Shown here piece by piece: positions 32,532 to 49,298 of a DNA stretch of 64,000 nt (its first letter is position 1; every line of letters begins with the position of its first letter). The notes under the pieces are model-generated. The model ran no database searches and was not told where the DNA came from. It was given only the letters and a program-made list of their open reading frames with translations. Made by a program: the position numbers and the translations under genes. Source of the DNA: Verrucomicrobiota bacterium (GTDB lineage Bacteria > Verrucomicrobiota > Verrucomicrobiia > Limisphaerales > UBA11320); NCBI GenBank assembly GCA_016199985.1, contig JACQFQ010000061.1:93008-157007 (forward strand), read 5' to 3'.

Positions 32532-35516
32532 ATGGCAATGGCCCCTCAGCGCTTCGGCGCACAGCGCTCCGCGTTCGCTTGCCTCCGCGAGGGGCTTCGC
32601 CGCGTTGGGAGCGGAGTCTGGCTGATCGCGATGATCCTCCTCGCGTCGGATTCGACCGCTCAGCCGCTGACCGTTCCTGCGAATCAGGCGCTCCGGTTCC
32701 GGGGAACCAACAACTACGTCGAGGTTCCCCACAGCCGGATTGCCAAGCTTCGGGAAGCCACGGTGGAGTGCTGGGCCCGATGGAACCGTTTCCGCGAACA
32801 CTCCCGCGTTGTCGAGTGGGGCCGCCCTTTTCATTGCTTTACAATCGCCCATCTCGGCTCGCGGCCCGACCTCGCGTTCGAGATCTGGGCGGGACAGGGG
32901 AATGCCGGCGTCATCCATGTGCCTGGGATCCTTCCTTTGGATGAATGGTGCCATATCGCCGCGGTGTCGGGCGCGGAGGGAATGCGGCTTTATTTCAACG
33001 GATTCCTGGTGGGATCCAACGCGTTCCCAGAAACCTTCGCGGATCTCGGAATAAGATCGCCCGGCCTCCTGGGCAAATCGGTGTGGGGACGCCCGGATCA
33101 CCGGAGCATCGACGCGTCGATCGACGAGGTGCGGATCTGGGATCACGCTCGGAGCGAGGCCATGATCCGCGCGGACTTGGGACGTCGACTGTCGGGCAAA
33201 GAGGCCGGCCTCGTTGCCCTTTGGAACTTCGACTCGGGGCTACAGGACGCGGGTCCCTACCATCTTGACCTCTTCAACGCGCGCGGCGCCGATATCAGGC
33301 CTGACCCCTATCCTGACGCCGCCAGTCTGCTCGCTCCGGCTCTCGTTCGGCTCAGGGTTCTCGCGCCTGGAGGCGGCGACATCGATCGGGCGATTGTTCA
33401 ACTCTTCGGGCCTGAAGGGGTGCTTGCCGAGGCTCGAGGAGCGGAGTTCGGCCGCCGCGACGAGCCTTCTTCCGGGGGCGGATACCTCCTGGCCTGCCCC
33501 ACGCCGTCGCAGCCCTTCGGGATTCGCGTTCAGAGCGAGTTTGGCTCTTTCGAGACGAATGGCCTCACGGTCGAGCGCGGGCGTTCCCTCGCCCTCGCGA
33601 TCCAGTATCCGAGCTCGGCCACGCTGCAAACCACGAACGAGTTTGCGCGATGGCTGGGTCGCGAAATCCGGGACCCTCAAAAAGGGGGGCGACGCGCGCT
33701 GATGCTTCAGCGTCTGCGAGATCTCGGCCCTCGCGCCGCCGAGGCCGGACCGGACCTGATGTTCCTGCTCCGCGATCCCGACCAGGATGTAAGGCTCAAG
33801 GCCTTCGAAACGCTCGCCGGCATCAAGACGCTTTCCACCGCGCAGATCGGCGTTCTCCTGGAGTGCCTGGAGAGCCCGGACAAGGACATCCGAGACCATG
33901 CCAATCGGCTGCTGAAAACGATCGATGTTCCCACGAACCTCGAGCCCTATTTCATGAAGACCAACCAGGCCGTTGGGTATCTGGTCGCCGGTCTGCTCGC
34001 CGCCTTCGCTCTGCTTCACTTTGTGCTGTTCGCGTTCTATCCCGCCGCCAAGAGCAATCTCCATTACGCCGTGTTCTGCGCGACCGGCACGGCGAGCGCG
34101 CTCTTGGTGGACTACCTGGACAGGCCCTCGGGCTCCGTTCTCAAGACCCTGGGTCTCGGCCTTCGCTATACGACGCTGATCCTGGCGTTGCGGCTCCTCT
34201 ACTCGCTCTTCGACCACAAGCTCGACCGCCGGTTCTGGGGATTCCTTGCCTATTGGCCGGTTTTTTTCGTGCTTCAATCGTTCCTGCCCTTCCTGAGTTC
34301 GGGCGGCGCTCTCATCATGGTGACCGCCGGGTTTTACTGGATGCTGGTGCACGAGATGTTTCGAGTGCTGAGATTGAGGCGCAGCCGGGAATACCCCGGG
34401 GCGTGGATTGTGGGCCTGGGCATCGGGTTTTTTATCGCCTGCCTGATGTTGTCCGTCAGTCGCATGCCGCTGCCTTTCCTACGCGACCTGATGGGCATCA
34501 CCTTCACCGACAATCTGCCGCAAATCGGCCTGACAAGCTTCGTCATCGCCAACTCGGTCTATCTGGCTCGGCAGTTCGGACGCACCAACCAGGACCTCCG
34601 GCTGGCCAAGGAAACGCTCGAAACGCAGCGCGCGCAGCTCGCCTTCGCCAAGGAGGTCGCCGAGGACGCCAACCACGCCAAGAGCGCCTTTCTCGCGAAC
34701 GTCAGCCATGAGCTGCGGACTCCGTTGAACGCGATCATCGGCTACAGCGAGATGCTTCAGGAGGAAGTGGAGGAGGCGGGGCGGGTGGATCTGCGGCAGG
34801 ATCTTCAAAGGATCAATGGCGCCGGCAAGCACCTGCTCGGCCTCATCAACGACGTCTTGGATCTCTCCAAGATTGAGGCGGGGCGTATGTCGGTCCACAT
34901 CGACAAGGTGGACGTGAATCGCCTCCTGCAGGAAGTCGCGGCGACGGTCCAACCCCTGATCGAGAAGAATCGCAATCAGCTGGTCCTCGACGCTCCCGTC
35001 GATCTGGGCCCATGCCGCAGCGATGACATGCGCTTGCGACAGATTCTCATCAACCTGCTCAGCAACGCCGCGAAATTCACCGACCAGGGCCGGATCACTC
35101 TGAAGGCGCGGCGTCATTCCCTGGCGTCGCTTCCCCCCCTGGAGGCCGACGCCGACATCGAGCGGATTCCGGCCCCCGAGAACGGAGAGGAAGGCGCGGC
35201 TTCTCGGGACTACTTGTTCCTGCAGATCGTCGACTCCGGGATCGGCATGACGCCCGAGCAGGTTTCGCGGCTGTTTCAGCCGTTCACCCAGGCGGACGCC
35301 TCGATCGCGAAGAAGTACGGCGGCACGGGGCTCGGCCTCACGATCTGCCGCAAGCTCACCACCATGCTCCATGGCCAGCTGAAGATGACGAGCCGGCTGG
35401 GAAAGGGATCCACTTTTCTAGTGATTGCGCCCGCGATCATCGAGCTGCCCCCTCAGCTCGACGTTGGCGCGCCCTCGGAGGACGCGAAGCGGGCGGAAAC
35501 GACGGGAACCCTCTGA
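32532..35516 (+). CDS. LamG-HEAT-multi-TM sensor histidine kinase
   Basis: A 994-residue membrane kinase. A signal/anchor (VWLIAMILLASDSTA) precedes a LamG/concanavalin-like domain at about 55-250 (LRFRGTNNYVEVPHS, ATVECWARW, SIDEVRIWDHARSEAMI). An Ig/CNA-like piece follows at about 270-350, then HEAT-type helices at about 365-465 (LMFLLRDPDQDVRLKAFETL). About seven hydrophobic segments occupy 480-690 and a coiled coil follows. The DHp has NVSHELRTPLNAIIGYSEML with His near 724. The ATPase has INLLSNAAKFTDQG, VDSGIGMTPEQ and YGGTGLGLTICRKL, with a charged insert of about 30 residues near 860. There is no receiver; the next gene supplies one 7 bases downstream. Confidence 0.9.
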   Translation: MAMAPQRFGAQRSAFACLREGLRRVGSGVWLIAMILLASDSTAQPLTVPANQALRFRGTNNYVEVPHSRIAKLREATVECWARWNRFREHSRVVEWGRPFHCFTIAHLGSRPDLAFEIWAGQGNAGVIHVPGILPLDEWCHIAAVSGAEGMRLYFNGFLVGSNAFPETFADLGIRSPGLLGKSVWGRPDHRSIDASIDEVRIWDHARSEAMIRADLGRRLSGKEAGLVALWNFDSGLQDAGPYHLDLFNARGADIRPDPYPDAASLLAPALVRLRVLAPGGGDIDRAIVQLFGPEGVLAEARGAEFGRRDEPSSGGGYLLACPTPSQPFGIRVQSEFGSFETNGLTVERGRSLALAIQYPSSATLQTTNEFARWLGREIRDPQKGGRRALMLQRLRDLGPRAAEAGPDLMFLLRDPDQDVRLKAFETLAGIKTLSTAQIGVLLECLESPDKDIRDHANRLLKTIDVPTNLEPYFMKTNQAVGYLVAGLLAAFALLHFVLFAFYPAAKSNLHYAVFCATGTASALLVDYLDRPSGSVLKTLGLGLRYTTLILALRLLYSLFDHKLDRRFWGFLAYWPVFFVLQSFLPFLSSGGALIMVTAGFYWMLVHEMFRVLRLRRSREYPGAWIVGLGIGFFIACLMLSVSRMPLPFLRDLMGITFTDNLPQIGLTSFVIANSVYLARQFGRTNQDLRLAKETLETQRAQLAFAKEVAEDANHAKSAFLANVSHELRTPLNAIIGYSEMLQEEVEEAGRVDLRQDLQRINGAGKHLLGLINDVLDLSKIEAGRMSVHIDKVDVNRLLQEVAATVQPLIEKNRNQLVLDAPVDLGPCRSDDMRLRQILINLLSNAAKFTDQGRITLKARRHSLASLPPLEADADIERIPAPENGEEGAASRDYLFLQIVDSGIGMTPEQVSRLFQPFTQADASIAKKYGGTGLGLTICRKLTTMLHGQLKMTSRLGKGSTFLVIAPAIIELPPQLDVGAPSEDAKRAETTGTL

Positions 35517-35523
35517 TCATTCT

Positions 35524-35907
35524 ATGCAACGCAACCTGCTACTCGTGGAAGACAACGAGATGAATCGCGACATGCTTTCGCGGCGCCTTCTCAAGCGCGA
35601 GTTTCGAGTCACGCTGGCGGTCGATGGAGCGGAGGCGATCGCCAAGGCGAAATCGGAGCGGCCGGACTTGATTCTTATGGACATGAGCCTGCCTGTCATT
35701 GACGGGTGGGAAGCCACACGGCGGCTCAAAGCCGACCCGGACACCGCGGGGATTCCGATCATCGCCCTCACCGCCCATGCCATGGCGGAGGATGAGCGGA
35801 AGGCGCGCGAAGCCGGATGCGACGACTTCGACGTCAAGCCCGTCGAGCTTCCCCGTCTTCTCGAGAAGATCCAGGGACTGCTCAATCGATCTGCGAATCC
35901 CGGATGA
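35524..35907 (+). CDS. Single-domain response regulator
   Basis: A 127-residue lone receiver. NLLLVEDNEMNRDMLSRRLL holds the acidic pair, LILMDMSLPVIDGWEATRRL the phospho-acceptor Asp, PIIALTAHAM the Thr and FDVKPVELPRLL the Lys. No output domain. It starts 7 bases after the LamG kinase and overlaps the phosphatase gene by 4 bases, so it is the likely first phosphate acceptor. It may shuttle phosphate as CheY or Spo0F-like proteins do. The ATG at 35524 starts directly at the first beta-strand; the track's extra 33 residues lie inside the kinase gene. Confidence 0.92.
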   Translation: MQRNLLLVEDNEMNRDMLSRRLLKREFRVTLAVDGAEAIAKAKSERPDLILMDMSLPVIDGWEATRRLKADPDTAGIPIIALTAHAMAEDERKAREAGCDDFDVKPVELPRLLEKIQGLLNRSANPG

Positions 35908-37574
35908 GCGACGATCCATCGACCTCCCGCCGCTCCGAGCCCTCGGCGCTGGCCCGCGCGCGGCACGATCTGCGCACTCCGATGAACCACGTTCTCGGAT
36001 ACGCCGAAATGCTGCTGGAGGAGAATCCGCCGGAGGAGTTCAGGAGCGATCTCTCGAAAATCCTGGCGAGCGGAAGGCGGCTTCTGGAGCTGATCAATCT
36101 CTATCTCGACGAACGAACATTCGAATCCTCCCGCGCCGACCTGCCCAGGGTCTTCCACGACCTGCGGACGCCGGTGAACCACATCATCGGCTACAGTGAG
36201 ATTCTTCAGGAGAGGGCCGAGGAGTGCGGCAACGCGGAATGGATTCCGGACCTGCGGCGAATCCGGGAGGCGGCGGGGACCTGGCTCCAGCTGATGGAGT
36301 CGCTGCTCGTCCCGCTCTCGGAGCAGTCCGTCGCGTCTGTCGGCATGGGCGCCTCGTCTCCGCCCGCGTCGAGAGCGTTCCACTCGGGAGCTCTACCCTC
36401 CAGAACGACGCGCCGCCTGGCCGGGGTCGTGCTGGTGGTGGATGACAACGCCGGCAATCGGGATCTCCTCGTTCGACGGCTGCGGCGCGAAGGTCACACC
36501 GCGCATGAAGCCGCGGACGGCAATCGCGCGCTGGAGGTTTGGCGCCGCGAGCGGCCTGACGTCGTGCTTCTCGATGTGCAAATGCCCGACCTCGATGGCT
36601 ACACCCTATTGCAGCAAGCCATGGGGGACGCCGAGTTGCGCGAAGCGGCGGTGATCATGGTGTCCGGTTTCGATCGGCAGGAGGGAATCGCGCGTTGCAT
36701 CGAGGCCGGGGCCGAGGATTACCTCATCAAGCCTTTCGACGCGGTGCTCCTGCGCGCGCGCGTGGCGGCCTGTCTGGAGAAGAAGGAGCTTCGCGACCAG
36801 GAGCGGCGCACGCATCGGGCCCTGGTCGAGAGCCAGGCGCGCTTGACCGCGGAGCTGGCGGAGGCCGCCGGCTACGTCCGATCCTTGCTCCCTGCGCCCC
36901 TCTCCGGCGCCATCTCCACGGAGTGGGTTTTTCGCCCTTCGGCCCAGCTGGGCGGAGACGCCTTCGGCTATCACTGGATCGACGACGAGCACTTCGCTCT
37001 CTACCTGCTGGATGTGTGCGGCCATGGCATCGGCGCCGCGCTCCTTTCGGTCTCGGCGTTGAACCTGATCCGATCCGAGGCCCTCCCCGGCGTGGATCCC
37101 CGGGAGCCCGCGGCCGTCATGGCGGGCTTGAACAAGGCCTTTCCGATGGAAGCGCAGAACCAGCAATATTTCACAATCTGGTATGGCGTGTTTCGCTCGA
37201 CGGACCGCGAGCTTCGATTCGCCAGCGCGGGTCATCCGCCCGCGTTTCGGATCGGGGCCGGCGGGGAGCGCGCGCCATCCATCCACGACCTTCGCACTCC
37301 GGCGCCGCCCATCGGCTGCCTCCCCGAGGCCAGGTTCTCGCAGCAGTCGGCGCCGCTCGGACAAGGCGACACGCTCCTCATCTTCAGCGACGGGGCGTAC
37401 GAGTTTCAAAATGCGGATGGCGCTCCGATCACCCTCGCCGATTACAGGCAGTGGCTCGCCCGGCAGGTCACGGTATCGCCGTTGCGCCTGGGGGATTGCG
37501 TCCGGTTTGCCGAGACTCACAGCCGCGGCGCCGATCTGGAGGACGACATGAGCATTCTCTGCGTCCGTTTCTGA
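35904..37574 (+). CDS. Double-DHp, receiver, SpoIIE/PP2C phosphatase protein
   Basis: A 556-residue cytoplasmic signalling protein. Two tandem HisKA-like segments carry RARHDLRTPMNHVLGYAEML (His21) and RVFHDLRTPVNHIIGYSEIL (His85), each about 55 residues. No HATPase domain follows either one. A receiver spans about 173-290 (VVLVVDDNAGNRDLL, VVLLDVQMPDLDGY, EDYLIKPFDAVL). A short coiled coil leads to a SpoIIE-type PPM phosphatase (about 310-555) with QLGGDAFGYHWID, LLDVCGHGIGAALLS and the C-terminal DDMSILCVRF; the metal-binding Asp residues are present. Lacking an ATPase domain, the DHp parts cannot autophosphorylate alone. They may dimerise or act as phosphotransfer sites served by the LamG kinase. 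Confidence 0.88.
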   Translation: MSDDPSTSRRSEPSALARARHDLRTPMNHVLGYAEMLLEENPPEEFRSDLSKILASGRRLLELINLYLDERTFESSRADLPRVFHDLRTPVNHIIGYSEILQERAEECGNAEWIPDLRRIREAAGTWLQLMESLLVPLSEQSVASVGMGASSPPASRAFHSGALPSRTTRRLAGVVLVVDDNAGNRDLLVRRLRREGHTAHEAADGNRALEVWRRERPDVVLLDVQMPDLDGYTLLQQAMGDAELREAAVIMVSGFDRQEGIARCIEAGAEDYLIKPFDAVLLRARVAACLEKKELRDQERRTHRALVESQARLTAELAEAAGYVRSLLPAPLSGAISTEWVFRPSAQLGGDAFGYHWIDDEHFALYLLDVCGHGIGAALLSVSALNLIRSEALPGVDPREPAAVMAGLNKAFPMEAQNQQYFTIWYGVFRSTDRELRFASAGHPPAFRIGAGGERAPSIHDLRTPAPPIGCLPEARFSQQSAPLGQGDTLLIFSDGAYEFQNADGAPITLADYRQWLARQVTVSPLRLGDCVRFAETHSRGADLEDDMSILCVRF

Positions 37575-37688: not shown

Positions 37689-40460
37689 TTACGAACGCGA
37701 AGGGGACCCGGAGAGGGCCGCTTGCAGGTATCGCGCGGTGTGGGATGCGGCGGTCCGCGCGATCGCCTCCGGCGTTCCCTCCGCGACCAGCGCGCCCCCG
37801 CCTTCGCCGCCTTCGGGGCCGAGATCGATGACCCAGTCCGCGTCGCAGATCAGGTCGATGTTGTGCTCGATCACCAACACGGAGTGCCCGCCGTCGACGA
37901 GGCGTTGAATGACATCCACCAGCCGTCGCACATCGGACATGTGCAGCCCCACCGTCGGCTCCTCGAGGATGAAGAGGTTTTTCGCCGCCGTCTTCGGACG
38001 GCGCGAGGGCGATAGCGCGTCCTTCAATCCCGTCAGCAGATGCGTCACCAGCTTGACCCGCTGCGCCTCGCCGCCGCTGAGGGTCGGGCTGGTCTGGCCG
38101 AGCCGCACGTATCCAAGGCCGGTATCGTTGAGGACCTGGAGGGGATGCAGGATGCGAGACTGGCTTGCGAAGAACTCGATCGCCTCCTCGACGGAGAGCT
38201 CCAGCACATCGGCGATGCTCTTGCCCCGGAACAACACGTCGAGGGTCTCTCGGTTGAATCGAGTGCCGAAACAGGCCTCGCATTTCACGTAGGCCGGCGG
38301 CAGGAAGTTCATCTCCAGCTTCACCATCCCCGCGCCTTCGCAGCCGGGGCAGCGCCCCGCGGCGCTGTTGAAGGAGAACCGGCTGGCCGTGTAGCCGCGC
38401 ATGCGGGCCTCGGGCGTTGCGGCGAAGAGATCGCGGATCTCATTGAAGAAGCCGACATAGGTCGCCGGCGTCGATCGCGGTGTTCGGCCGATCGGCGCCT
38501 GGTCCACTTCGTAAACGGCTTTCAGGCTCTCCCATCCTTCGATCGGAAAGGGCGGGCTTGCGGACTTCCGCAGCCGCGCGGCCAGGCTCGGGAGCAGGCC
38601 TTCGCGAACCAGCGTGCTTTTTCCCGATCCGCTCACTCCTGTCACCGCGACGAACCGACCCAAGGGAATGCGAAGCTTCAGCGCCTTCAAGTTGTGAAGA
38701 GTCACGGGTCCAATCGTCAGCCACTCCGCTCCCGGCTCGCCGGCGCCCCTCTTCGGGGCCGATACGGGCCGTCTCTCTCCCCGCGCCGGGTGGTGTCGGC
38801 GCGCCCGCAAGCACTCCCCCGTGACGCTTCGGGGATGCTTTGCGAGTTGGCTCAGCGTCCCTTCCGCGATCACCTCTCCCCCGCGCACCCCGGCCCCGGG
38901 ACCGAGATCAATGATCCAGTCCGCCCGGCGCATCGTTTCCTCGTCGTGCTCCACCACGACCACGGAATTGCCGCGCTCGCGCAATTGCTCCAAGGCCTCG
39001 AGCAGCCGCTCATTGTCCCGGGAATGCAGTCCGATCGTGGGCTCGTCCAGAATGTACAGCACGCCGCTCAGATTCGATCCCAGCTGCGCCGCGAGCCGGA
39101 TGCGTTGCGATTCCCCTCCGGACAAAGTGGTGACGGCGCGACCCAGATGCAGGTAGCCCAGGCCCACCGACTGCAGAAACGAAAGCCGCTCGCGGATCTC
39201 GGGCAGGATGTCGCGCGAGATCTGTTCCGCGGCGCCCTCGAAGCGCAGTCGCGCAAAGAAATCCCCGGCCACCGCGACAGGCATGTCGCTGAACGCCTCG
39301 ACCGTGGGGCCGCGAACCGCTCCCGCCTGGACCGACGACGGCGATCCCCAGTCGGAGACCGGCAGACGGACCGCTCGAGCGATCCGGTTCAGTCGCGATC
39401 CATGGCAGGCCTCGCAGGCTTCGTGATTTCCTTCCGTCCACCCAAACCAGGACTCCTCGATCGCGTCCGCCCTCGCGCCCCGCTCCACGTCCGGAAGCTC
39501 GAAGAGCTCCCCGAAGCCGCGGCACTCCGGACACCAGCCCTGCGCGGAATTGTAGCTGAACATCTTTGGATCCAGAACCGTGAACGATTGGCCGCACTCC
39601 GGACAGGCCCGCTCAGTGGAGTGCACGGTGGCGCGCCCCGCGCTATCCAGGGCGAGGAGGGTTCCCTTGCCGATCTTCAACGCCGCTTCGGCGAGGGCCC
39701 GCGGGCCGGCGATGGAGTCCGCCTTGCCTGGCGACGAGCGCCTGGCTTTCGCCCTGAGCGTCCCCACGACCACCTCCACGTCATGCTCCCGGAAACGATC
39801 CAGGCGCATGGGTTCGGATGTCTTGTAGATCTTTCCGTCGGCGCGGATGGCCTCATACCCATGGGACGCGGCCCATTCCGCGAGATCCGTGTGGAAGCCC
39901 TTCCGATGCTTGACCAGGGGCGCGAGCAACGTGAGATCGCCGCGCTGCGCGGACTCCCGCGCCAGGCGCCGGAGCATCTCATCCCGGGTCTGCGGCTCCA
40001 CGGCGCATCCGCAATCCGGACAGTGCTGGGCGCCCAGCCGCGCGAAGAGCAGGCGGATGAAGTGATAGATCTCGGTGACCGTGGCGACGGTGCTCTTGCC
40101 CCCACCTCGGCTCGTGCGCTGCTCGATGCTCACGGTTGGCGGCACGCCGGTGATCAGGTCCACGTCCGGACGGGACATCTGCTCCACAAACTGGCGGGCG
40201 TAGGCGCTCATCGAATCGAGGAAACGTCGCTGTCCCTCGGCGAATAAAAGATCGAACGCCAGGGTGCTCTTGCCGGATCCGCTGACGCCCGTGATCACCA
40301 CGAATCGATCGCGCGGAATCCGCAGCGAGAGATTCTTCAGGTTGTGCTCCCGCGCTCCGTGGATCTGGATGGCGTCGTCAGAAACTGGCGCCGTCGGCGC
40401 GTCGGGCTTGGAGCTTCTCTGTTTGCGGGCCTTTGGGGACATCGTGTTCGATGAGCTCAT
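37689..40460 (-). CDS. UvrA-family excinuclease ATPase, paralogue 1
   Basis: A 923-residue UvrA. Both ABC modules are complete: Walker A GVSGSGKSTLAFDLLFAEG (58 on) and GVSGSGKSTLVREGLL; signatures LSGGESQRIRLAAQL and LSGGEAQRVKLVTHL; Walker B ILDEPTIGLHSRD and ILEEPTVGLHMSD, the second with Glu-Glu replacing Asp-Glu. Zinc knuckles CPDCG, CPECG...CPECRGFG and CPGCEGAG...CEACFG are kept. A segment like the UvrB-binding domain (LVKHRKGFHTDLAEW, DGKIYKTSE) is present. It should recognise damaged DNA for nucleotide excision repair or an export/tolerance role. The start at 40460 overlaps the stop of the second uvrA-like gene by 4 bases. A canonical single-copy uvrA may lie elsewhere. Confidence 0.9.
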   Translation of the reverse strand: MSSSNTMSPKARKQRSSKPDAPTAPVSDDAIQIHGAREHNLKNLSLRIPRDRFVVITGVSGSGKSTLAFDLLFAEGQRRFLDSMSAYARQFVEQMSRPDVDLITGVPPTVSIEQRTSRGGGKSTVATVTEIYHFIRLLFARLGAQHCPDCGCAVEPQTRDEMLRRLARESAQRGDLTLLAPLVKHRKGFHTDLAEWAASHGYEAIRADGKIYKTSEPMRLDRFREHDVEVVVGTLRAKARRSSPGKADSIAGPRALAEAALKIGKGTLLALDSAGRATVHSTERACPECGQSFTVLDPKMFSYNSAQGWCPECRGFGELFELPDVERGARADAIEESWFGWTEGNHEACEACHGSRLNRIARAVRLPVSDWGSPSSVQAGAVRGPTVEAFSDMPVAVAGDFFARLRFEGAAEQISRDILPEIRERLSFLQSVGLGYLHLGRAVTTLSGGESQRIRLAAQLGSNLSGVLYILDEPTIGLHSRDNERLLEALEQLRERGNSVVVVEHDEETMRRADWIIDLGPGAGVRGGEVIAEGTLSQLAKHPRSVTGECLRARRHHPARGERRPVSAPKRGAGEPGAEWLTIGPVTLHNLKALKLRIPLGRFVAVTGVSGSGKSTLVREGLLPSLAARLRKSASPPFPIEGWESLKAVYEVDQAPIGRTPRSTPATYVGFFNEIRDLFAATPEARMRGYTASRFSFNSAAGRCPGCEGAGMVKLEMNFLPPAYVKCEACFGTRFNRETLDVLFRGKSIADVLELSVEEAIEFFASQSRILHPLQVLNDTGLGYVRLGQTSPTLSGGEAQRVKLVTHLLTGLKDALSPSRRPKTAAKNLFILEEPTVGLHMSDVRRLVDVIQRLVDGGHSVLVIEHNIDLICDADWVIDLGPEGGEGGGALVAEGTPEAIARTAASHTARYLQAALSGSPSRS

Positions 40461-43400
40461 CCTTCCTCCCTCCGCCGCGCCCGGGTTCGTTCCGCGTCGG
40501 CGCTCTGCGCCTCGCGCAACGCCAGGCCCGTGTGACTGGCCAGACACTCGGCCACGACCGACGGCGGGCCCGCCACAACCACATTCCCGCCTCCCGATCC
40601 CGCCTCGGGCCCCAAATCAATCACCCAGTCCGCGGCGCGAACCACATCGAGGTTGTGCTCGATGATCAGCAGGGAATGCCCCGCGTCGACGAGCCGCTGA
40701 AACACGTTCAACAAGACGCGAACATCCTCGAAGTGAAGCCCCGTGGTTGGCTCATCAAAGATGAAGAGCGTCGCCTGGATCGCCGCGACGGACGTCACGC
40801 CTTGTTTCCCCGCGGCGCGCGGCGAAACGGAGGACTCCGCCAGGAAGCTGACCAGTTTCAGCCTCTGGCTTTCCCCTCCGGACAAGGTGTTGATGGGCTG
40901 GCCGAGCCTCAGATACCCCAATCCGACTTCCTGGAGCCACCGCAGCGCGCGCGCCGCGGCCAGCGCTTCCCGGTTCTGCGGGAACGCTTCCAGGAACTCA
41001 ACGGCGTCCTCCACGGTTGCGTCGAGCATGTCCGCGATCGACCAACCTTCCCCCCACTTTGAGCCGATGGGCTCCGACGCGTCCGTCCGCTCAAGATCCG
41101 CCGTCATCCGATCGTTGAGGACAAGCGCCGAGGCGTCCACGCGGGACGATCCGCGGAGCGAAGCGGAGGCGGTCGCGAAGAGGTTGGCCCTCCGGCCCGC
41201 GACGCCGCCGCGCTTCGCGGGGCGATAGCTGACGGTCGGCGCCGGCGATGAAGGCGGTTTCAGTTTCACCTCGAGCACATGCTCGCGGTAGCGCCTGCCG
41301 CCGCAATCGCCGCAGCGCACATAGACATCGCTGAGAAACTGCATCTCGATCTTCTCGAATCCCGCGCCGCGGCAGCGCTCGCACTGGCCTCGCGGGGAGT
41401 TGAAGCTGAATCCGCCCGCCTCCAAGGAGCGTTCCCGGGCCATGGGCGAGTCGGCGAACAGCTTGCGGATCGCGTCGAAGGCGCCGACATACACCACCGG
41501 ATTGGATCGTGGCGTTCGGCCGAGCGCGGTTTGATCCACCATCACCACACGAGTCAAGGACTCCGCGCCGCGCAATTCTCGGAATCGCCCGCGCGCGTCC
41601 GCATCGGGCGCCTCGGTCGGGGACGCGTCGCCGCCGGATTCGGGCGCGTCATCGTCGGCGGTCTTCCCGGCTTCCGGCGTTGAACCGGGGCTCTGCCTTT
41701 GAAGCAATGCGGGCATGAGAACCTCCCGAACCAGCGTGGTCTTTCCCGAGCCGCTGACGCCTGTGACGCACACGAGGCGCTCCAACGGGATATCGACGTC
41801 GAGGTCGCGAAGATTCTGGGCTGTCGCGCCGACGAGTCGCAGCCACTTTTGGGGTGATGGCGTTTGGGACAGACGCGGAGACACGGGCCGTCGCGGCCGT
41901 GTGTCCATTCCCCGCGCGCCCCTCAGGTACTGGCCGGTGAGCGACCGCTTGCAGCTCAGAATCTCTTCGAACGGGCCATGGAAAACAATCTCGCCGCCTT
42001 TCTCCCCCTGGCCCGGGCCCAGGTCAAGAATGCGATCCGCCGCGCGCATGACGCTGGCCTCGTGTTCCACCACCACCACGGTGTTGCCGGTGTCCCGGAG
42101 CCGGTGAAGAATGTTGATCAACCGCCGTGTATCGCGCGGATGCAGCCCCACGCTGGGCTCGTCGAGGACGAAGAGCGTGTTCACCAGGCGCGTGCCCAGG
42201 CAGGTGGTGAGATTCACGCGCTCGGTTTCGCCGCCGGAGAGGGTCCGGGTGGGGCGATCCAAAGTCAGATAGCCGAGCCCCGCTTCGTTGAGATAGTGGA
42301 GACGCGCGTGGACCTCCTCAAGCACCAGACGCAGCGGGTCATGCTGCGGGCGCGCGGGGGAGTGGATCCATTCCTTCACCCAGCGCAGCGCGTCCGCCAC
42401 CGTTAGCCGATAGAAATCGGAAAGTGTCCGTCGGAGCTGAGTTCGTGGCGGCTGCGGCGCCGTCTCGGAGGCCGGGGACCGCGTCCACTCCACCGGCAGC
42501 GGCCAATCCTGAGGCCAGTCGACGCGGAAGTGGAGGCTCTCGGGCCGGAAGCGCCGCGCTTTGCAGACAGGGCAGGGCGTGTAGGCGCGGTACCGGGAGA
42601 GCAGCACGCGAACATGCATCTTGTAGGCCTTGGACTCGAGCCATCGGAAATAGCCCTTCACTCCATACCACGCCCTCGGCCATTCGTGCTCCTCATCCTT
42701 CCCGTAGCCTGGCTCGCCTTGAACGACCCATTCCTGGTGTTCCTTGCTGAGCTGATGGAAAGGGATCTTGGTGGGAATGCCTTGCGCCTTGCAGGCTCGC
42801 ATCAAGTCGCGCTGGCAGTCGGCGCTGACGCCGGACTTCCAGGGTCTCACCACGCCTTCGGCCAGCGTTTTCGAATGATCCGGCATCGCGAGCTGGTAAT
42901 CGATGGTGATGATCCGTCCGAACCCGCGGCATTCTGGGCAGGCGCCGAGGGGATGGTTGAAGCTGAACAGCGCAGGGGAGGGCTCGGAGTAGTCGATGTC
43001 GCAGCTTGCGCAATGGAATCGGTTGGAGAAGCGGCGCGGGCTTCGCGCTTGAGCCTCCGAGCCCTTTTCGGGGGCTGTCAGGCGCCAGACCGTGAGACGC
43101 CCTTTTCCAAAGTGGTAGGCCTGCTCGCAGGCCTCGACAAAGCGGGCGCGATTCTCCGGCTTCAGGGACAAGCGGTCCTGGACAACGATCAGCGAGGAGG
43201 CGGGCGAGGATGCCAGCATGCCCGCGGCCGCTTCGATGCGGACGACGGCCTGGCCCAGCAGCAGTCGCTGATATCCCTGCCGCGCCACGAGCGAGAGGGA
43301 CTCCTGCAGAGGGAGCTTCTCGCTGAGAGGAAGATCGAAAGTCAACAGCGCGTCGCCTTCGGCCGCGCTGGCATCGTCGGAGGGAGGCGACTTGCGAAGG

Positions 43401-43834
43401 CTTTCCCAGACATCCGCCGGGCCTTCGCGTCGGACCTGCTCTCCGCAGCCGGCGCAGTAGAGCGTCGAAAGATGGCGCCAGACCACCTTCATGTGCTCGC
43501 AGATCTCGGTCATGGTGCCGACGGTGGAGCGGGTGCTTCGAACCGCGTTCCGCTGCTCCACCGCGATGGCGGGAGGGATCCCTTCGATCCGATCGACGCG
43601 CGGCTTGTCCATGCGGTCGAAAAACTGTCGGGCGTAAGGGCTGAACGTTTCGATATAGCGGCGCTGGCCTTCGGCGAAGAGCGTTTCGAAGGCAAGGGAG
43701 CTTTTCCCGGATCCGCTCAGGCCCGTGATAACGGTGAGCTGCTTCAGGGGGATATCGAGGTCGAAATTCTTGAGATTATTCTGCCTGACACCGCGTAGGC
43801 GGATGCAAGACATGGGCCGAGGACGCGACATCAC
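40457..43834 (-). CDS. UvrA-family excinuclease ATPase, paralogue 2 (long)
   Basis: A 1125-residue UvrA paralogue, longer than the usual 940. Walker A GLSGSGKSSLAFETLFAEG at 38 on and GVSGSGKTTLVREVLMP; signatures LSGGETERVNLTTCL (Glu-Arg replaces Gln-Arg) and LSGGESQRLKLVSFL; Walker B VLDEPSVGLHPRD and IFDEPTTGLHFED. Zinc motifs CAGCG, CPECRGFG, CPVCKARRF and CERCRGAG...CGDCGG are visible. Extra length comes from a linker rich in Pro/Ser/Asp near the second module (SPGSTPEAGKTADDDAPESG) and about 70 residues after the last zinc motif (LKPPSSPAPTVSYRP...). It is the upstream gene of the pair and ends in ATGA overlap with paralogue 1. MSCIRLRG (43813) is an alternative start. Confidence 0.9.
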   Translation of the reverse strand: MMSRPRPMSCIRLRGVRQNNLKNFDLDIPLKQLTVITGLSGSGKSSLAFETLFAEGQRRYIETFSPYARQFFDRMDKPRVDRIEGIPPAIAVEQRNAVRSTRSTVGTMTEICEHMKVVWRHLSTLYCAGCGEQVRREGPADVWESLRKSPPSDDASAAEGDALLTFDLPLSEKLPLQESLSLVARQGYQRLLLGQAVVRIEAAAGMLASSPASSLIVVQDRLSLKPENRARFVEACEQAYHFGKGRLTVWRLTAPEKGSEAQARSPRRFSNRFHCASCDIDYSEPSPALFSFNHPLGACPECRGFGRIITIDYQLAMPDHSKTLAEGVVRPWKSGVSADCQRDLMRACKAQGIPTKIPFHQLSKEHQEWVVQGEPGYGKDEEHEWPRAWYGVKGYFRWLESKAYKMHVRVLLSRYRAYTPCPVCKARRFRPESLHFRVDWPQDWPLPVEWTRSPASETAPQPPRTQLRRTLSDFYRLTVADALRWVKEWIHSPARPQHDPLRLVLEEVHARLHYLNEAGLGYLTLDRPTRTLSGGETERVNLTTCLGTRLVNTLFVLDEPSVGLHPRDTRRLINILHRLRDTGNTVVVVEHEASVMRAADRILDLGPGQGEKGGEIVFHGPFEEILSCKRSLTGQYLRGARGMDTRPRRPVSPRLSQTPSPQKWLRLVGATAQNLRDLDVDIPLERLVCVTGVSGSGKTTLVREVLMPALLQRQSPGSTPEAGKTADDDAPESGGDASPTEAPDADARGRFRELRGAESLTRVVMVDQTALGRTPRSNPVVYVGAFDAIRKLFADSPMARERSLEAGGFSFNSPRGQCERCRGAGFEKIEMQFLSDVYVRCGDCGGRRYREHVLEVKLKPPSSPAPTVSYRPAKRGGVAGRRANLFATASASLRGSSRVDASALVLNDRMTADLERTDASEPIGSKWGEGWSIADMLDATVEDAVEFLEAFPQNREALAAARALRWLQEVGLGYLRLGQPINTLSGGESQRLKLVSFLAESSVSPRAAGKQGVTSVAAIQATLFIFDEPTTGLHFEDVRVLLNVFQRLVDAGHSLLIIEHNLDVVRAADWVIDLGPEAGSGGGNVVVAGPPSVVAECLASHTGLALREAQSADAERTRARRREEG

Positions 43835-43895: not shown

Positions 43896-46418
43896 TTATT
43901 TGGGGTCGTGGTAGTCCTCGATGGTGATCACGTCGCGGTCGCGGATCCAGAGGGTGGGTTCGGGACCGGGGTTCACCAGATCCACTACCCAGTTTGTCTT
44001 GGGGTGGTTCGCGGACGCGGGACGCTCGACCTTCACGCGCGACAGATCGGAGGAAGACAGGATGAGCCCTTCAGGTTGAGTGATGACCCTATCGATTGAA
44101 AAGGTGACGGGCTGTCCTCCGTTGCCCGAGCGCCAAGTCACATTTGTGGTTGTTCCGCTGATGGAAAGCGTGATCGTGCGACTGAGACTCTCGCCCAGGA
44201 AACGCAGCCACTCCGCTCCCAGCCCTTGGAACGATCCGTTTAGAGGATGCGTGGATTCAGGGATCTCCAGGACGTCGCCCCATTGCAGCTTTTCATCCTT
44301 CCTGCCCACTTTCACCACTTGTGATCCGCCGTCGGGACTAAGGCGGCGGATGCTCAAGGCGTCCATTTGTGGCCACGCAAGGGAAGGCCAACTGGATGAG
44401 CCGTAGTTTGAGACCCGGCCGGGGCTGGAGAGTCCGCCGAATTGAGCGACCGAGCCTCGCGACGGTATTGAGCGTCCTGACGTGGCCGGCGGGTAAGGTG
44501 AAGCCGCGCTCGGCGCCTGAAGTCCTGCGTAAAGCATTCCGAGCGCCTCGTGCAGCGTGAATGTGTTCCAATCATTCGTCCCCCGCCGGAAGAGGACCGC
44601 GCTAAATCCTGTGGATTCCCGGTAGACGCGGATCGTCTTGAAGTCGGGGAGAGAGAGGGAATCCTTTGCGCCGTACCGGACCAAGGCGGCGATCACTTTT
44701 TCGTAGGATGCCGGCGTGTCGGAATTTCCCGGGCGCGGTGGGATGGCGTTAAAGTTTTTGTTCGCTGAACGATTCGAAGCCAGCTTGGCCACATCCAAAG
44801 GCGTCAACCCGTCCTCGCCGCGATCGTTCGGATTCGCTCCGTGTTTCAGCAGCGACTCAACCAGCTCCGAATGAGCATCGCCGTACTGACAAATCTCTTG
44901 GAGCAAGTGGTGGCCCATGGTCGCAGGAAGGTTGGGATCCGCGCCGGCGTCCAGCAGCATCATCACCACGTCTGTGTAGCCCCACGGAACTGCCGTCAGC
45001 GGACGATACCGGGTCTCAGGCAGGAGCAAGTTGGGGTCGGCCTTCTTTTTAAGCAGGCTTCGAATGATCGACTTCACCGCCATTCTGTCCGAGTCATTGG
45101 CGGCCGAAGACACTCTGCCGAGCGCCGCGATGAGGGGAGCGGTCCCTCCAGCCGGCGTTCGGTTCGGGTCCGCGCCCGCCTCCAGCAACGTGTCGACGGC
45201 CTCGGAGTCAGGGAAGACTTGGATCACGCGCGAGACCATCGCATTGCCCCGTTCTGGATCCAAGGGCACGCCTTTGCGTCTGAGGGTGTCAAGAATAGCG
45301 AGTAGATCCTGCCTCCAGGGTCTGCCGCCGTCGGGCACGCGACTAATCAGCCGTTCGTACAGACTGGGCTCGTAATTCCAACTCGGGTCCGCGCCGGATG
45401 AGAACAGTGATTCCACGTCGTCGGAGGTTCCATACTTGATCGCGGTTTCTAGCGGGCTGGATCCGTGTTCGCGGCCCTTGTTGACATCCGCCTTCGCTTC
45501 CAGCAACGCCGCGATGGTCGCTTTCTCCTTCCGGTCTATCGCCAGCGCGAGAGGTGTGAGGTTTCCGTGATGAGGATAATTGAACCAGCTGGAGGCTCTG
45601 CTGTTTCCCGACGTGATCAGAGCGTTCTTGTCCGCTCCCGCTTCGATGAGCAGTTGCGCGACCTGGCGTCGCCCGGCGGCAGCCGCCAAGTGCAGGGCTG
45701 TGTAGCCGTCCGACGCGGCGAGGCTGGGAGGAGCGCCGGCTTGCAGGAGTCGCTGCACGACCGCCCGATGCCCTCGCCACGCCGCCCAATGCAAAGGGCT
45801 CAGATCGCTCGGACCCCCGTTCGTGAATATCACGTGATGGCTCAGCAGAAAATCAACAACCTTCAACTGTCCTCGGGCCGCGGCGTCCTGGAGCGGAGTG
45901 ACGCTCGTGTTCGCCGCCATGTTCCATCCAGGCGCTTCCAGGAGATCCGGACTGCTCTGGATCAGGGTCTCCAGCCGGCGGATCTCCTTGTCTTCGGTGT
46001 CGTCCGCCGACTGCTGCGGCGTGGACGGCGTGGAGGGGCGAAGTCCCAGCATCGCGAGATTCTGCTCGCTCAGCTTGGCCAGCGCCGTCTCGCTCGGAAA
46101 CTCCCGAAGCAACCGTTGATAGTGCTGCGCCGCCTCGTTGGTCTGCCCAAGCTTTCGGTAGCTCTCCCCCAAACGAAAGACAGCGGTCGCCGCGAGCCGC
46201 CGCTGGTTGTCGATCTTCTCGATCAGCTCGCGATACGTCCGGATCGCCGCGGGAAGATCGCGCTGCGCCTCTTCCTCCATCAATCCCTTCTGCAGAAGAT
46301 CAACGAGCGCGTCCGCCGTGAAGGCGCGCAGAGGAAGAAGGATGACCACCAACCACAGAGTGAGTGTTTTCATAATCTCTGGAGGGAGAGTGCGCTTTTG
46401 AGGCGGCGGAGTTGTCAT
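43896..46418 (-). CDS. Exported TPR-ankyrin repeat protein
   Basis: An 840-residue protein with a hydrophobic signal (TLTLWLVVILLPLRAFTADA). Residues about 40-130 form TPR-like helices (LMEEEAQRDLPAAIRTYREL, GESYRKLGQTNEAAQHYQRL). From about 165 to 600 there are ankyrin repeats: SPLHWAAWRGHRAVVQRLLQ, TALHLAAAAGRRQVAQLLIE, then LLEAGADPNR and LLDAGADPNL. The last 230 residues are non-ankyrin, with Ser/Pro-rich stretches and a beta-rich end (LWIRDRDVITIEDYHDP). The ATG at 46418 overlaps the response-regulator stop (ATGA) and follows GAGGA, so it is preferred; the ATG at 46373 gives a shorter signal. Located in one operon with a two-component pair, it is probably their target or a periplasmic partner. 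Confidence 0.82.
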   Translation of the reverse strand: MTTPPPQKRTLPPEIMKTLTLWLVVILLPLRAFTADALVDLLQKGLMEEEAQRDLPAAIRTYRELIEKIDNQRRLAATAVFRLGESYRKLGQTNEAAQHYQRLLREFPSETALAKLSEQNLAMLGLRPSTPSTPQQSADDTEDKEIRRLETLIQSSPDLLEAPGWNMAANTSVTPLQDAAARGQLKVVDFLLSHHVIFTNGGPSDLSPLHWAAWRGHRAVVQRLLQAGAPPSLAASDGYTALHLAAAAGRRQVAQLLIEAGADKNALITSGNSRASSWFNYPHHGNLTPLALAIDRKEKATIAALLEAKADVNKGREHGSSPLETAIKYGTSDDVESLFSSGADPSWNYEPSLYERLISRVPDGGRPWRQDLLAILDTLRRKGVPLDPERGNAMVSRVIQVFPDSEAVDTLLEAGADPNRTPAGGTAPLIAALGRVSSAANDSDRMAVKSIIRSLLKKKADPNLLLPETRYRPLTAVPWGYTDVVMMLLDAGADPNLPATMGHHLLQEICQYGDAHSELVESLLKHGANPNDRGEDGLTPLDVAKLASNRSANKNFNAIPPRPGNSDTPASYEKVIAALVRYGAKDSLSLPDFKTIRVYRESTGFSAVLFRRGTNDWNTFTLHEALGMLYAGLQAPSAASPYPPATSGRSIPSRGSVAQFGGLSSPGRVSNYGSSSWPSLAWPQMDALSIRRLSPDGGSQVVKVGRKDEKLQWGDVLEIPESTHPLNGSFQGLGAEWLRFLGESLSRTITLSISGTTTNVTWRSGNGGQPVTFSIDRVITQPEGLILSSSDLSRVKVERPASANHPKTNWVVDLVNPGPEPTLWIRDRDVITIEDYHDPK

Positions 46419-47164
46419 CGCTTTGTAAAGTCCTCGGGGCTGGCGGATCCGATGGCCGGCGCCTTCGCGATCTCCAGGCGGTACCCGACCCCGGACACGG
46501 TGAGGATCCAGCGAGGGTTGCCCGGATCGGGCTCGAGCTTCTGGCGGAGGGAGGCGATGTGGTTGTCCACGGTTCTCGTTGTGGGGAACGCGGCGTAGCC
46601 CCAGACGACATCCAGGAATCGTTCGCGCGACACCGCTTCGCCGTCGTTTTCGGAAAGGAGACGAAGCATGGCGAATTCCTTCGGCGTGAGATGCAGGGGC
46701 TTTCGTCCGCGAGTCGCTGTCTGACGCGCGAAGTCGATGGTCGTGTCGGCCAATCGCAGGCCGCTTGTCGAGGGCAGGGCGCGCTGTTGTCGTCGGAGGA
46801 GGGCGCGAAGCCTGGCGAGGAGCTCCTCGGATCGGAAGGGCTTCACCAGATAGTCGTCCGCGCCGAGGTCCAATCCCTTGACGCGGTCGGCCCACTGGCC
46901 CTTCGCGGTCAGGAGCAGCACGGCGGCGCGACAGCCCGCGCGACGCAGCGTCTCGCACACCGAAAACCCATCGAGCCGCGGCAGCATCACGTCGAGCACA
47001 ATGAGATCCGGTTGTTCCTCGGTCGCTTTGTCGAGGCCCAGCTGTCCGTCGGACGCGCTCATCACGCGGTATCCCGCCTGGCGGCAGCAATCCTCCAGGG
47101 CACGACGCATCGCGGGCTCATCTTCGACAATCAGCACTCGTGGGCCTGGCGGAGTGGAGCTCAT
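46415..47164 (-). CDS. OmpR/PhoB family response regulator
   Basis: A 249-residue regulator. Receiver: VLIVEDEPAMRRALEDCC, LIVLDVMLPRLDGFSV with the acceptor Asp, VLLLTAKGQWADRVKGLDL and DDYLVKPFRSEELLARLRAL. The winged helix has LHLTPKEFAMLRLLSENDGE, then FPTTRTVDNHIASLRQKLEP and ILTVSGVGYRLE, the Trans_reg_C signature. It starts one base after the kinase stop, and its own stop overlaps the ankyrin gene start. It is most likely phosphorylated by the adjacent kinase and acts as a DNA-binding activator. Confidence 0.93.
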   Translation of the reverse strand: MSSTPPGPRVLIVEDEPAMRRALEDCCRQAGYRVMSASDGQLGLDKATEEQPDLIVLDVMLPRLDGFSVCETLRRAGCRAAVLLLTAKGQWADRVKGLDLGADDYLVKPFRSEELLARLRALLRRQQRALPSTSGLRLADTTIDFARQTATRGRKPLHLTPKEFAMLRLLSENDGEAVSRERFLDVVWGYAAFPTTRTVDNHIASLRQKLEPDPGNPRWILTVSGVGYRLEIAKAPAIGSASPEDFTKR

Positions 47165-47165
47165 G

Positions 47166-49298
47166 TCAGCGGGCGGGTTGAGTTTCGTTTGAACCCGCGG
47201 GGGGTGAGGGCGAGCCGCAGGGGAATTCCAACGTGAAGCAACTGCCCGCGCCCACCTCGCTCTGAACGCGCACGGCGCCGCCATGCGCTTCCATGATGTG
47301 ATGGACGAGAGTGAGGCCGATGCCCACCCCGCGGGTTTCGCGTCGGAGCTCCGAGCCTCGACGGTAGAAAGGCTCGAAGATCCGCTGCCGCTCCGAGGCG
47401 GGGATTCCTGGTCCCTGGTCGACGACCGACAGGCGCAGAGCGTCCGGATCCCGACGCAACTCGACCACCACCTCCGCGTTCGCGGGGCTGTGTTTGAGGG
47501 CATTGTCGATCAGGTTTGTGAGGGCTCGCTCGACGGCGCGTCCATCCAGAGTCCACTCCACGGGACCTTGAGGAGCGATGACCGTCAGCCGCACCCGGGA
47601 CTCCGAGGCCCGCGGGCTCATCGCCCCGCAGACCTGCGCGACCAGGCGCGCCGTATCCGTGGGCTCCGGCTCGAAGGTTTGCGCGGCTCGTTCGAGGCGG
47701 GAGAAATCGAGCGCGTTCTCCACAAGGCTCGCCAGACGCCGGCACTCCTGAAGAATGAGCTGATAGTATTCGCGTCGGCGCGAGGCGTCGCTGAAATCGT
47801 CCTTCGTGAGGTTCTCGGACAAGAGGCTGATCGCGGCCACCGGGGCGCGAAGCTCATGCGACACGCTGGAAACAAAGTTGGACTGGGCTTCCGCCAGCGC
47901 CCGCTGTCGCTGGAAGACGCGCCAAAGGACGCCGAGCCCTATCAAGGCCGTGGCCGTCATGGAGCCCAGGTAAAGAGCCGTGAACCGCGCCCGACGGTCG
48001 TGCTGCGCGTACAGCTGCGCCGGTTGGGCGAGGAGGATCGAGACCGAAAGCGCCATTCGAGAGCTCGGCGGCAGCCCCGGGGCTCGCTCCGAGCCCAGAA
48101 GCACAGGCGAGGCGTCCGTGGGCCATGCGCCAGGAGAGTGTCCGAGCGGGAAATCTCCAAGCCGTAGCTCCAGGCCGGCGTAATCCGGCAGCAACGCCTG
48201 CAAGGAGGCGAGGCTCGATTGCGTGTGCCGGGCCAGAGTTGACCGATCCATGGGCAGCCACATCGTCGATCCGGCCCGGTCCGCTTTTCGGGGGATGGGG
48301 AGGAGCAGCGCCGGCTCGTTTGTTTGGCCCCCGCCAAGCCAGAAGGGCTCCGGCGGAACGCGCGTCAATTCCTGGCGAGGGCATCTAGCCGCCAACTCCC
48401 GGACCCATTGCGATCGATTCCAAATCGCGCGCAGAGCGGCGATCTCGCCGCGGCGCTCGTTCGAGAACCGCGTGGGAGACCGCTCCATGGCCTCGAGCAG
48501 CTTGGATGTCAGGAAGCTGGGGCACTCAACAATGGCGCAGCGCAGCGCGCGGAGCAGCGGGACTTCCTCCTCGGGCGTCGTCTTGCTCTCGCGGAGGAAT
48601 TCCATCGCGGCCACAGCGAGCAGCGGCAGGCCCGATTCTGTCTGCGCGGCGGAAGGAACGGCTCTGAGAAAGGACGCGACCGCGATCTGAAACTCCGATC
48701 TCGGTCCGCAGAGGATCGCGCCGTAACCAGCGAGCGGGGCCGCGTCGGGCGGGCCGATCTCGGCAAAACGCTTCCACGCGACGACGCCATCCGCCGTGTC
48801 GGCGCGGCCATTCCATCGCTCCGCGATGGCGAGTTGTTGCTGCTGTCGGGCCGAAAGCAAAGACACCCAGACCGGGCTGGAAGGGATGTCGATCAGCGGA
48901 GCGGGGCTTTCCCAGGCGCCGTCGAGCGTTAAAGCCAAAGGCGGTGTTGGGAGGAATAGGGACTTCCAGTCCGTCGACCCGTTCGTCGTAGGGGCCGGCA
49001 ACGCCATCGCGTTGGCGGGGGGCCAGGCCGCGGCGTTCCGATCCGCGTATTCCTGGAGAAACCGTTGGAAATCCTGCTGCGCGAGAGTCGCGAGCCGGGG
49101 AGCGAGGACGCGCGCCTCGCGCTCAGCCCGCTGCGTGACGGCTTCGCGATCCCGAATGTGGGAGAGGGCCGCGAACCCTGCGAGCGCGAGGAACGACAAC
49201 AGCACGACCAACGCGATCCCGCGAGCCAGATGAATCGATAATGAGGATCGAAATCGCGGCGCTCTCATGGACGATGCGTCAACACTACGCGCCATCAT
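47166..49298 (-). CDS. Transmembrane sensor histidine kinase, large periplasmic domain
   Basis: A 710-residue kinase. Transmembrane helix 1 (GIALVVLLSFLALAGFAAL) is followed by an unusually long periplasmic region of roughly 390 residues with no domain I recognise. It includes helical repeats (FLRAVPSAAQTESGLPLLAV, LRALRCAIVECPSFLTSKLL) and ends near residue 430 with helix 2 (FTALYLGSMTATALIGLGVLW). The DHp is NFVSSVSHELRAPVAAISLL, and the ATPase has LTNLIDNALKHSPANAEV, VVDQGPGIPASERQRIFEPF and GVGIGLTLVHHIMEAHGG. Start 49298 follows the track; MRAPRFRS at 49268 is also possible. It heads the operon with the OmpR regulator and ankyrin protein. Confidence 0.9.
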   Translation of the reverse strand: MMARSVDASSMRAPRFRSSLSIHLARGIALVVLLSFLALAGFAALSHIRDREAVTQRAEREARVLAPRLATLAQQDFQRFLQEYADRNAAAWPPANAMALPAPTTNGSTDWKSLFLPTPPLALTLDGAWESPAPLIDIPSSPVWVSLLSARQQQQLAIAERWNGRADTADGVVAWKRFAEIGPPDAAPLAGYGAILCGPRSEFQIAVASFLRAVPSAAQTESGLPLLAVAAMEFLRESKTTPEEEVPLLRALRCAIVECPSFLTSKLLEAMERSPTRFSNERRGEIAALRAIWNRSQWVRELAARCPRQELTRVPPEPFWLGGGQTNEPALLLPIPRKADRAGSTMWLPMDRSTLARHTQSSLASLQALLPDYAGLELRLGDFPLGHSPGAWPTDASPVLLGSERAPGLPPSSRMALSVSILLAQPAQLYAQHDRRARFTALYLGSMTATALIGLGVLWRVFQRQRALAEAQSNFVSSVSHELRAPVAAISLLSENLTKDDFSDASRRREYYQLILQECRRLASLVENALDFSRLERAAQTFEPEPTDTARLVAQVCGAMSPRASESRVRLTVIAPQGPVEWTLDGRAVERALTNLIDNALKHSPANAEVVVELRRDPDALRLSVVDQGPGIPASERQRIFEPFYRRGSELRRETRGVGIGLTLVHHIMEAHGGAVRVQSEVGAGSCFTLEFPCGSPSPPAGSNETQPAR

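Follow-up and report, generated by a model that had tools for sequence, protein, structure and literature searches.

A precedent for the system described here is the KinA-Spo0F-Spo0B-Spo0A relay of Bacillus, which consists of a kinase, a lone receiver, a DHp phosphotransferase without a working ATPase domain and a final receiver. A DHp bundle is normally formed from two chains, and the Hpt domain is a single-chain bundle. The Hpt domain is usually a monomeric four-helix bundle, with the Spo0B bundle being assembled from two subunits (PMC3433190). ChpT of Caulobacter is a homodimer with a Bergerat-like domain; its DHp four-helix bundle relays phosphate and is incapable of autophosphorylation (PMC3433190). 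In the MrrA-PhyK-PhyR pathway, also from Caulobacter, a single-domain receiver loads a non-kinase DHp protein, which then passes phosphate to the receiver of the effector (PMC5964349). For the output end, the closest solved structure is RssB of Pseudomonas aeruginosa (PDB 3eq2/3f7a), in which a receiver is joined by a linker helix to a PP2C domain.

The locus reported here has the same complement of parts as the Bacillus relay, but the DHp segment is fused to the final receiver, each chain carries two hairpins, an ATPase-like domain is absent, and a phosphatase or cyclase takes the place of a DNA-binding domain as output. The likeness to ChpT would lie in a DHp bundle that relays phosphate, and the difference in a predicted one-chain bundle within the effector. 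The order of transfer from a single-domain receiver to a DHp phosphotransferase to an effector receiver may be shared with MrrA-PhyK-PhyR, although there the HWE/HisKA2 kinases have ATPase domains, the components are separate proteins and the output is a sigma mimic. RssB lacks DHp hairpins and is found in a different operon. Because the degenerate ATPase-like C-terminal domain is absent, we do not file the third protein as a Spo0B/ChpT member, only as one that may work alike, having the Spo0B/ChpT trait of a predicted DHp four-helix bundle with a phospho-accepting histidine.

Coordinates are positions in the window, a 64,000-nt stretch of the Verrucomicrobiota bacterium contig JACQFQ010000061.1. 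The operon occupies positions 32532-37574 of the + strand and encodes, in order, a kinase, a lone receiver and a tandem-DHp effector. The gap of 7 bp between genes 1 and 2 and the 4-bp overlap (ATGA) between genes 2 and 3 were confirmed from the coordinates, as given in the preliminary description. The operon is isolated, with a divergent gene upstream and a convergent UvrA-type gene downstream, and a promoter and terminator scan gave no matches above chance level. Downstream, on the − strand, are two adjacent UvrA-like genes that overlap by ∼90 bases (37689-43834) and a 1064-aa protein with ankyrin and TPR repeats (43896-47090), which adjoins a two-component pair (46415-49298).

Features of the kinase, lone receiver and effector genes, in window coordinates
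Feature	Position	Strand	Evidence or content
Gene 1, membrane sensor kinase, 994 aa	32532..35516	+	signal peptide, LamG, HEAT-like helices, membrane segments, HisKA, HATPase_c
LamG/concanavalin-like domain, gene 1 aa 58-212	32703..33167	+	PF13385 (Laminin_G_3), E 7e-21
HisKA domain, gene 1 aa 716-784, His726 in SHELRTP	34677..34883	+	Pfam, E 9e-22
HATPase_c domain, gene 1 aa 831-967	35022..35432	+	Pfam, E 5e-22
Gene 2, lone receiver, 127 aa, phospho-acceptor Asp53	35524..35907	+	one Pfam Response_reg
Gene 3, DHp-DHp-receiver-linker helix-PP2C (SpoIIE/RsbU type), 556 aa	35904..37574	+	
First DHp hairpin, gene 3 aa 15-67; His21 at 35964-35966	35946..36104	+	Pfam HisKA, AF2 model
Second DHp hairpin, gene 3 aa 77-146; His85 at 36156-36158	36132..36341	+	Pfam HisKA; packs with first in model
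Receiver, gene 3 aa 176-287, Asp224	36429..36764	+	Response_reg, E 7e-26
Long linker helix, receiver to phosphatase, gene 3 aa 280-327	36741..36884	+	full-length AF2 model
PP2C/SpoIIE phosphatase, Pfam match aa 360-556	36981..37571	+	SpoIIE, E 1e-37

The domain composition first proposed for gene 1 stood as regards the LamG domain, the membrane segments and the HisKA/HATPase core, while the HEAT-like helices gave only a HEAT_2 match slightly under the Pfam cut-off. Gene 1 has a signal-peptide-like stretch, and its aa 484-642 region contains several hydrophobic segments. The Pfam 7TMR-DISM family had no match in gene 1, so a '7TM' label is not established. No orthologue of the whole sensor was found in the sampled genomes of the phylum, where the matches covered LamG only. 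The proposal that a glycan or surface contact provides the signal was not supported, LamG being a broad fold only, and glycan sensing by gene 1 is a guess.

The domain assignments first made for the two downstream genes were borne out. Gene 2 is a lone receiver with a single Response_reg domain. In gene 3, His21 and His85 of the two DHp segments (Pfam HisKA, E 9e-19, in two stretches) lie where they had been placed, and Pfam confirmed the receiver and SpoIIE-type phosphatase and the lack of an ATPase domain. After the hairpins we found no Pfam match to HATPase or a remnant of it; a disordered linker leads directly to the receiver. The catalytic residues of the gene 2 and gene 3 receivers are intact, those of the latter being kept in all members aligned, and Asp352, Asp370, Asp496 and Asp547/548 of the PP2C domain are invariant across aligned relatives. 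A third HDLRTP string (in IHDLRTPAPP) occurs within the phosphatase domain, at window 37285-37304; as there is no HisKA match there, it is probably coincidental.

Within the genome, the HisKA domain that best matches the gene 3 hairpins is that of the kinase in the same operon (47%), and no second tandem DHp was found. The second-best match is a 2493-aa protein outside the window (L132:3818-11296, G000 contig C2), with at least two LamG stretches followed by HisKA-HATPase-receiver-receiver. This orphan, of the same kinase type as those at other cassettes, could feed gene 2 in trans.

To model the hairpin pair, residues 1-158 of gene 3 were submitted to AF2 as a single sequence with no alignment. 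The result was one compact four-helix bundle (mean pLDDT 87.8, pTM 0.78) with main helices at 15-39, 44-67, 77-108 and 111-146; the hairpins are thus modelled as a proper bundle and not as unrelated helices. In a Foldseek search, the nearest PDB chains to this model were single-chain helical (four-helix) bundles, none below E 0.001, and such weak matches are expected, given that the known DHp bundles are built from two chains. When DHp hairpins dimerize, helix 2 of one subunit finishes at the end of the bundle where helix 1 of the other begins, and therefore a short linker is enough to join two hairpins. The spacing between the two histidine positions is narrow (64-73 aa) in all tandem members. 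Judging from the model, each gene 3 hairpin therefore probably supplies one half of a single-chain DHp bundle.

The full-length AF2 model of gene 3 (pLDDT 85.7, pTM 0.52) has a disordered stretch at 144-170 and, among PDB structures, matches P. aeruginosa RssB best. The linker helix between receiver and phosphatase can be compared with the coiled-coil linkers of RsbU and RssB (PMC12143880).

To determine whether the three-gene order recurs, 388 Verrucomicrobiota genomes were searched with two queries, the whole of gene 3 and its first 301 residues. Further proteins were recovered whose alignments cover the two hairpins and the receiver, and loci were read over 12-14 kb around the matches with domain models built in this analysis. 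The order kinase, lone receiver, (DHp)2-receiver-output was present in all 11 Verrucomicrobiota tandem-DHp loci (window included), three of which are on single-contig genomes. The same order was seen in four rhizobial plasmid loci, namely pSymB of Sinorhizobium meliloti 1021, two from Rhizobium and one from Phyllobacterium, and so was kept in 15 of the 15 loci read. As the double hairpin and the gene order are also found in other families and another phylum, the arrangement is more than chance. In the Phyllobacterium plasmid cassette, the lone receiver (L102:5324-5957) reads across two frames and may therefore be broken or misread.

We defined the cassette as two HisKA hairpins 60-75 aa apart with no ATPase domain before the receiver, a lone receiver of the clade described below directly upstream, and an adjacent HisKA/HATPase kinase; the window has each of these. 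In most other cassettes, the kinase is HisKA-HATPase followed by two receivers. Unlike the kinases at the other cassette loci read, gene 1 lacks receiver domains, which are frequent in the cassette but not part of its definition, and the window system may therefore be simpler or rewired. The rhizobial and verrucomicrobial (DHp)2-receiver-class III cyclase proteins share the cassette, the order and the lone-receiver clade with the window; they differ in the cyclase output, in one hairpin being usually His-less and in a kinase with two receivers. Public annotation describes the cassette genes as response regulator, response regulator and adenylate/guanylate cyclase.

A tree of 85 receivers included 15 lone receivers from cassettes, those of the window and the rhizobia among them, and all of these fell into one clade with support of 100/100. 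This clade is separate from the kinase receivers, from the gene 3 receivers and from the lone receivers that stand beside DHp-less receiver-SpoIIE genes. The lone receiver was also considered as a general partner of receiver-SpoIIE genes, but the copies in Burkholderiales and others belong to another clade; the clade link is therefore specific to the DHp cassette. A tree of the DHp segments (63 columns) left most deep forks without resolution and does not decide whether the tandem had a single origin.

The output domain of most tandem members is a class III cyclase, whereas that of the window is a SpoIIE phosphatase. The tandem member of genome G118 has an output region that ends in an ATPase domain, and that of G095 ends after the receiver with no output domain. 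These swaps fit a general scheme in which phosphatase, cyclase and kinase outputs are interchangeable via a shared helical linker (PMC12143880). The nearest relative found (L008) is ∼50% identical to gene 3; its contig ends inside the second hairpin, so the first cannot be judged. Single-hairpin SpoIIE versions occur in G318 and G014 (L067-L069), and G003, from the window's own genus, has a His-less hairpin remnant before a receiver-cyclase (L007/L071). The tandem is therefore not indispensable, which speaks against the relay reading given below.

The phospho-accepting histidine is retained in both hairpins by the window, G118 and G365, in the first alone by eight other Verrucomicrobiota members, and in the second alone by the rhizobia. 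No tandem member lacks it in both, a result that is suggestive only, since the counts are small and the members related. A threonine at H+4 is kept in all His-bearing hairpins. The H+1 residue of these hairpins is Asp (window), Ala, Ser or Thr, with Glu in a single case, and the module kinases all have Glu. In HisKA proteins, the H+1 acid is required for autokinase activity only, and the Thr/Asn for phosphatase activity only (PMC3510030). With the acid often lost and the threonine kept, the hairpins therefore look built for accepting or removing phosphate and not for autophosphorylation. Across five related genomes, dN/dS of the first hairpin falls within the values for the receiver and cyclase. 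Four of the five have no histidine in the second hairpin, which evolves faster, with dN/dS below 1 in nine of ten pairs; within one genus, the sequences thus point to a His-less half that is mostly under purifying selection.

The domains, their order and their conservation were read from sequence, and the bundle fold from predicted structure. From the architecture, residue conservation and precedent we infer that phosphate moves from the kinase to the lone receiver, then to the DHp module and on to the attached receiver. On this basis the three genes would form a dedicated four-step His-Asp-His-Asp phosphorelay with the single-chain DHp bundle as a built-in His step, a reading to which we assign a probability of roughly 0.55. 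The LamG kinase would autophosphorylate on His726 and then phosphorylate Asp53 of the lone receiver, which would hand the phosphate to the gene 3 DHp module (His21 and His85, one per half). The hairpins, folded in-chain as a four-helix bundle, would correspond to the bundle that Spo0B or ChpT builds from two subunits and would pass the phosphate to Asp224 of the attached receiver. The phosphorylated receiver would then set the dimer state of the linker helix and hence PP2C activity. The earlier proposal that phosphate reaches gene 3 via the receiver, the DHp histidines or both is supported on the same grounds.

The retained threonine at H+4, being the residue needed for HisKA phosphatase activity and accompanied by the frequent loss of the H+1 kinase acid, fits a phosphatase role equally as well as a relay. 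The DHp pair might then be a phosphatase or sink that docks the lone or attached receiver and strips its phosphate, resetting or thresholding the system. We consider this unlikely, as each tandem member also retains the phospho-accepting histidine in one half or both, and PMC3510030 links phosphatase activity to the Thr/Asn.

Direct phosphorylation of the gene 3 receiver by the kinase, in which the lone receiver would compete as a sink and the role of the DHp pair would be limited to docking or organizing partners, would be consistent with the phospho-acceptor Asp and the Lys kept in both receivers, with the receiver-facing helix sequence (GYSEM/GYAEM) common to kinase and hairpins, and with the widespread occurrence of DHp-less receiver-SpoIIE relatives. 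Mere docking, however, needs neither the retention of histidine across distant lineages nor a co-occurring lone-receiver clade, and this arrangement seems quite improbable. That the hairpins descend from a kinase by loss of its ATPase domain and are now in decay is very improbable. In favour of this are the degenerate state of one half in many relatives, the faster evolution of the His-less half and the retention of only a His-less remnant in G003. Against it are open frames that are intact in many genomes, some of them single-contig chromosomes, the two intact HDLRTP boxes of the window, the spacing and gene order conserved across phyla and an active half about as constrained as the receiver and cyclase. 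The pair is not plainly a truncated kinase either; that reading was rejected, the homologues showing a cassette conserved across genomes.

The preliminary description had also proposed that the signal could drive a partner switch. This was not supported, there being no STAS or anti-sigma gene near the operon. The copies in the genome are unlinked to it; they include a STAS and RsbW-like pair (G000:C51:143197-143898) and a STAS gene beside a receiver-SpoIIE-HATPase gene (G000:C38:108907-110267), both candidate partner-switch parts. STAS genes do stand next to one DHp-less relative. In that relative (L070 in G300, a genome of the same taxonomic order as the window), a receiver-SpoIIE gene lies in a CheR-containing chemosensory operon and is followed by STAS-TCAD9 and STAS-APH fusions. 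Partner switching by the operon is a reasonable guess only.

In agreement with the earlier statement that no such described system was known, we found no literature on tandem or double HisKA or on tandem ATPase-less DHp domains within an incomplete coverage, and the words 'HisKA' and 'tandem' occur nowhere in a survey of two-component systems (PMC4558063). The cassette thus seems to be undescribed so far. We give even odds to the broader proposal that the cassette is widespread and that its duplicated HisKA hairpin folds into a single-chain pseudo-dimer acting like an Hpt domain, either half of which may lose its histidine in different lineages, ahead of interchangeable outputs. If the bundle is indeed formed from one chain, each of its two sites could be mutated independently, and the asymmetry of DHp phosphotransfer would therefore be directly testable; as the cassette is present on pSymB of S. 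meliloti 1021, genetics are accessible there. If true, two covalently joined DHp hairpins, one of which can do without its histidine, would represent an intermediate between DHp and Hpt, and a route from kinase to phosphotransferase.
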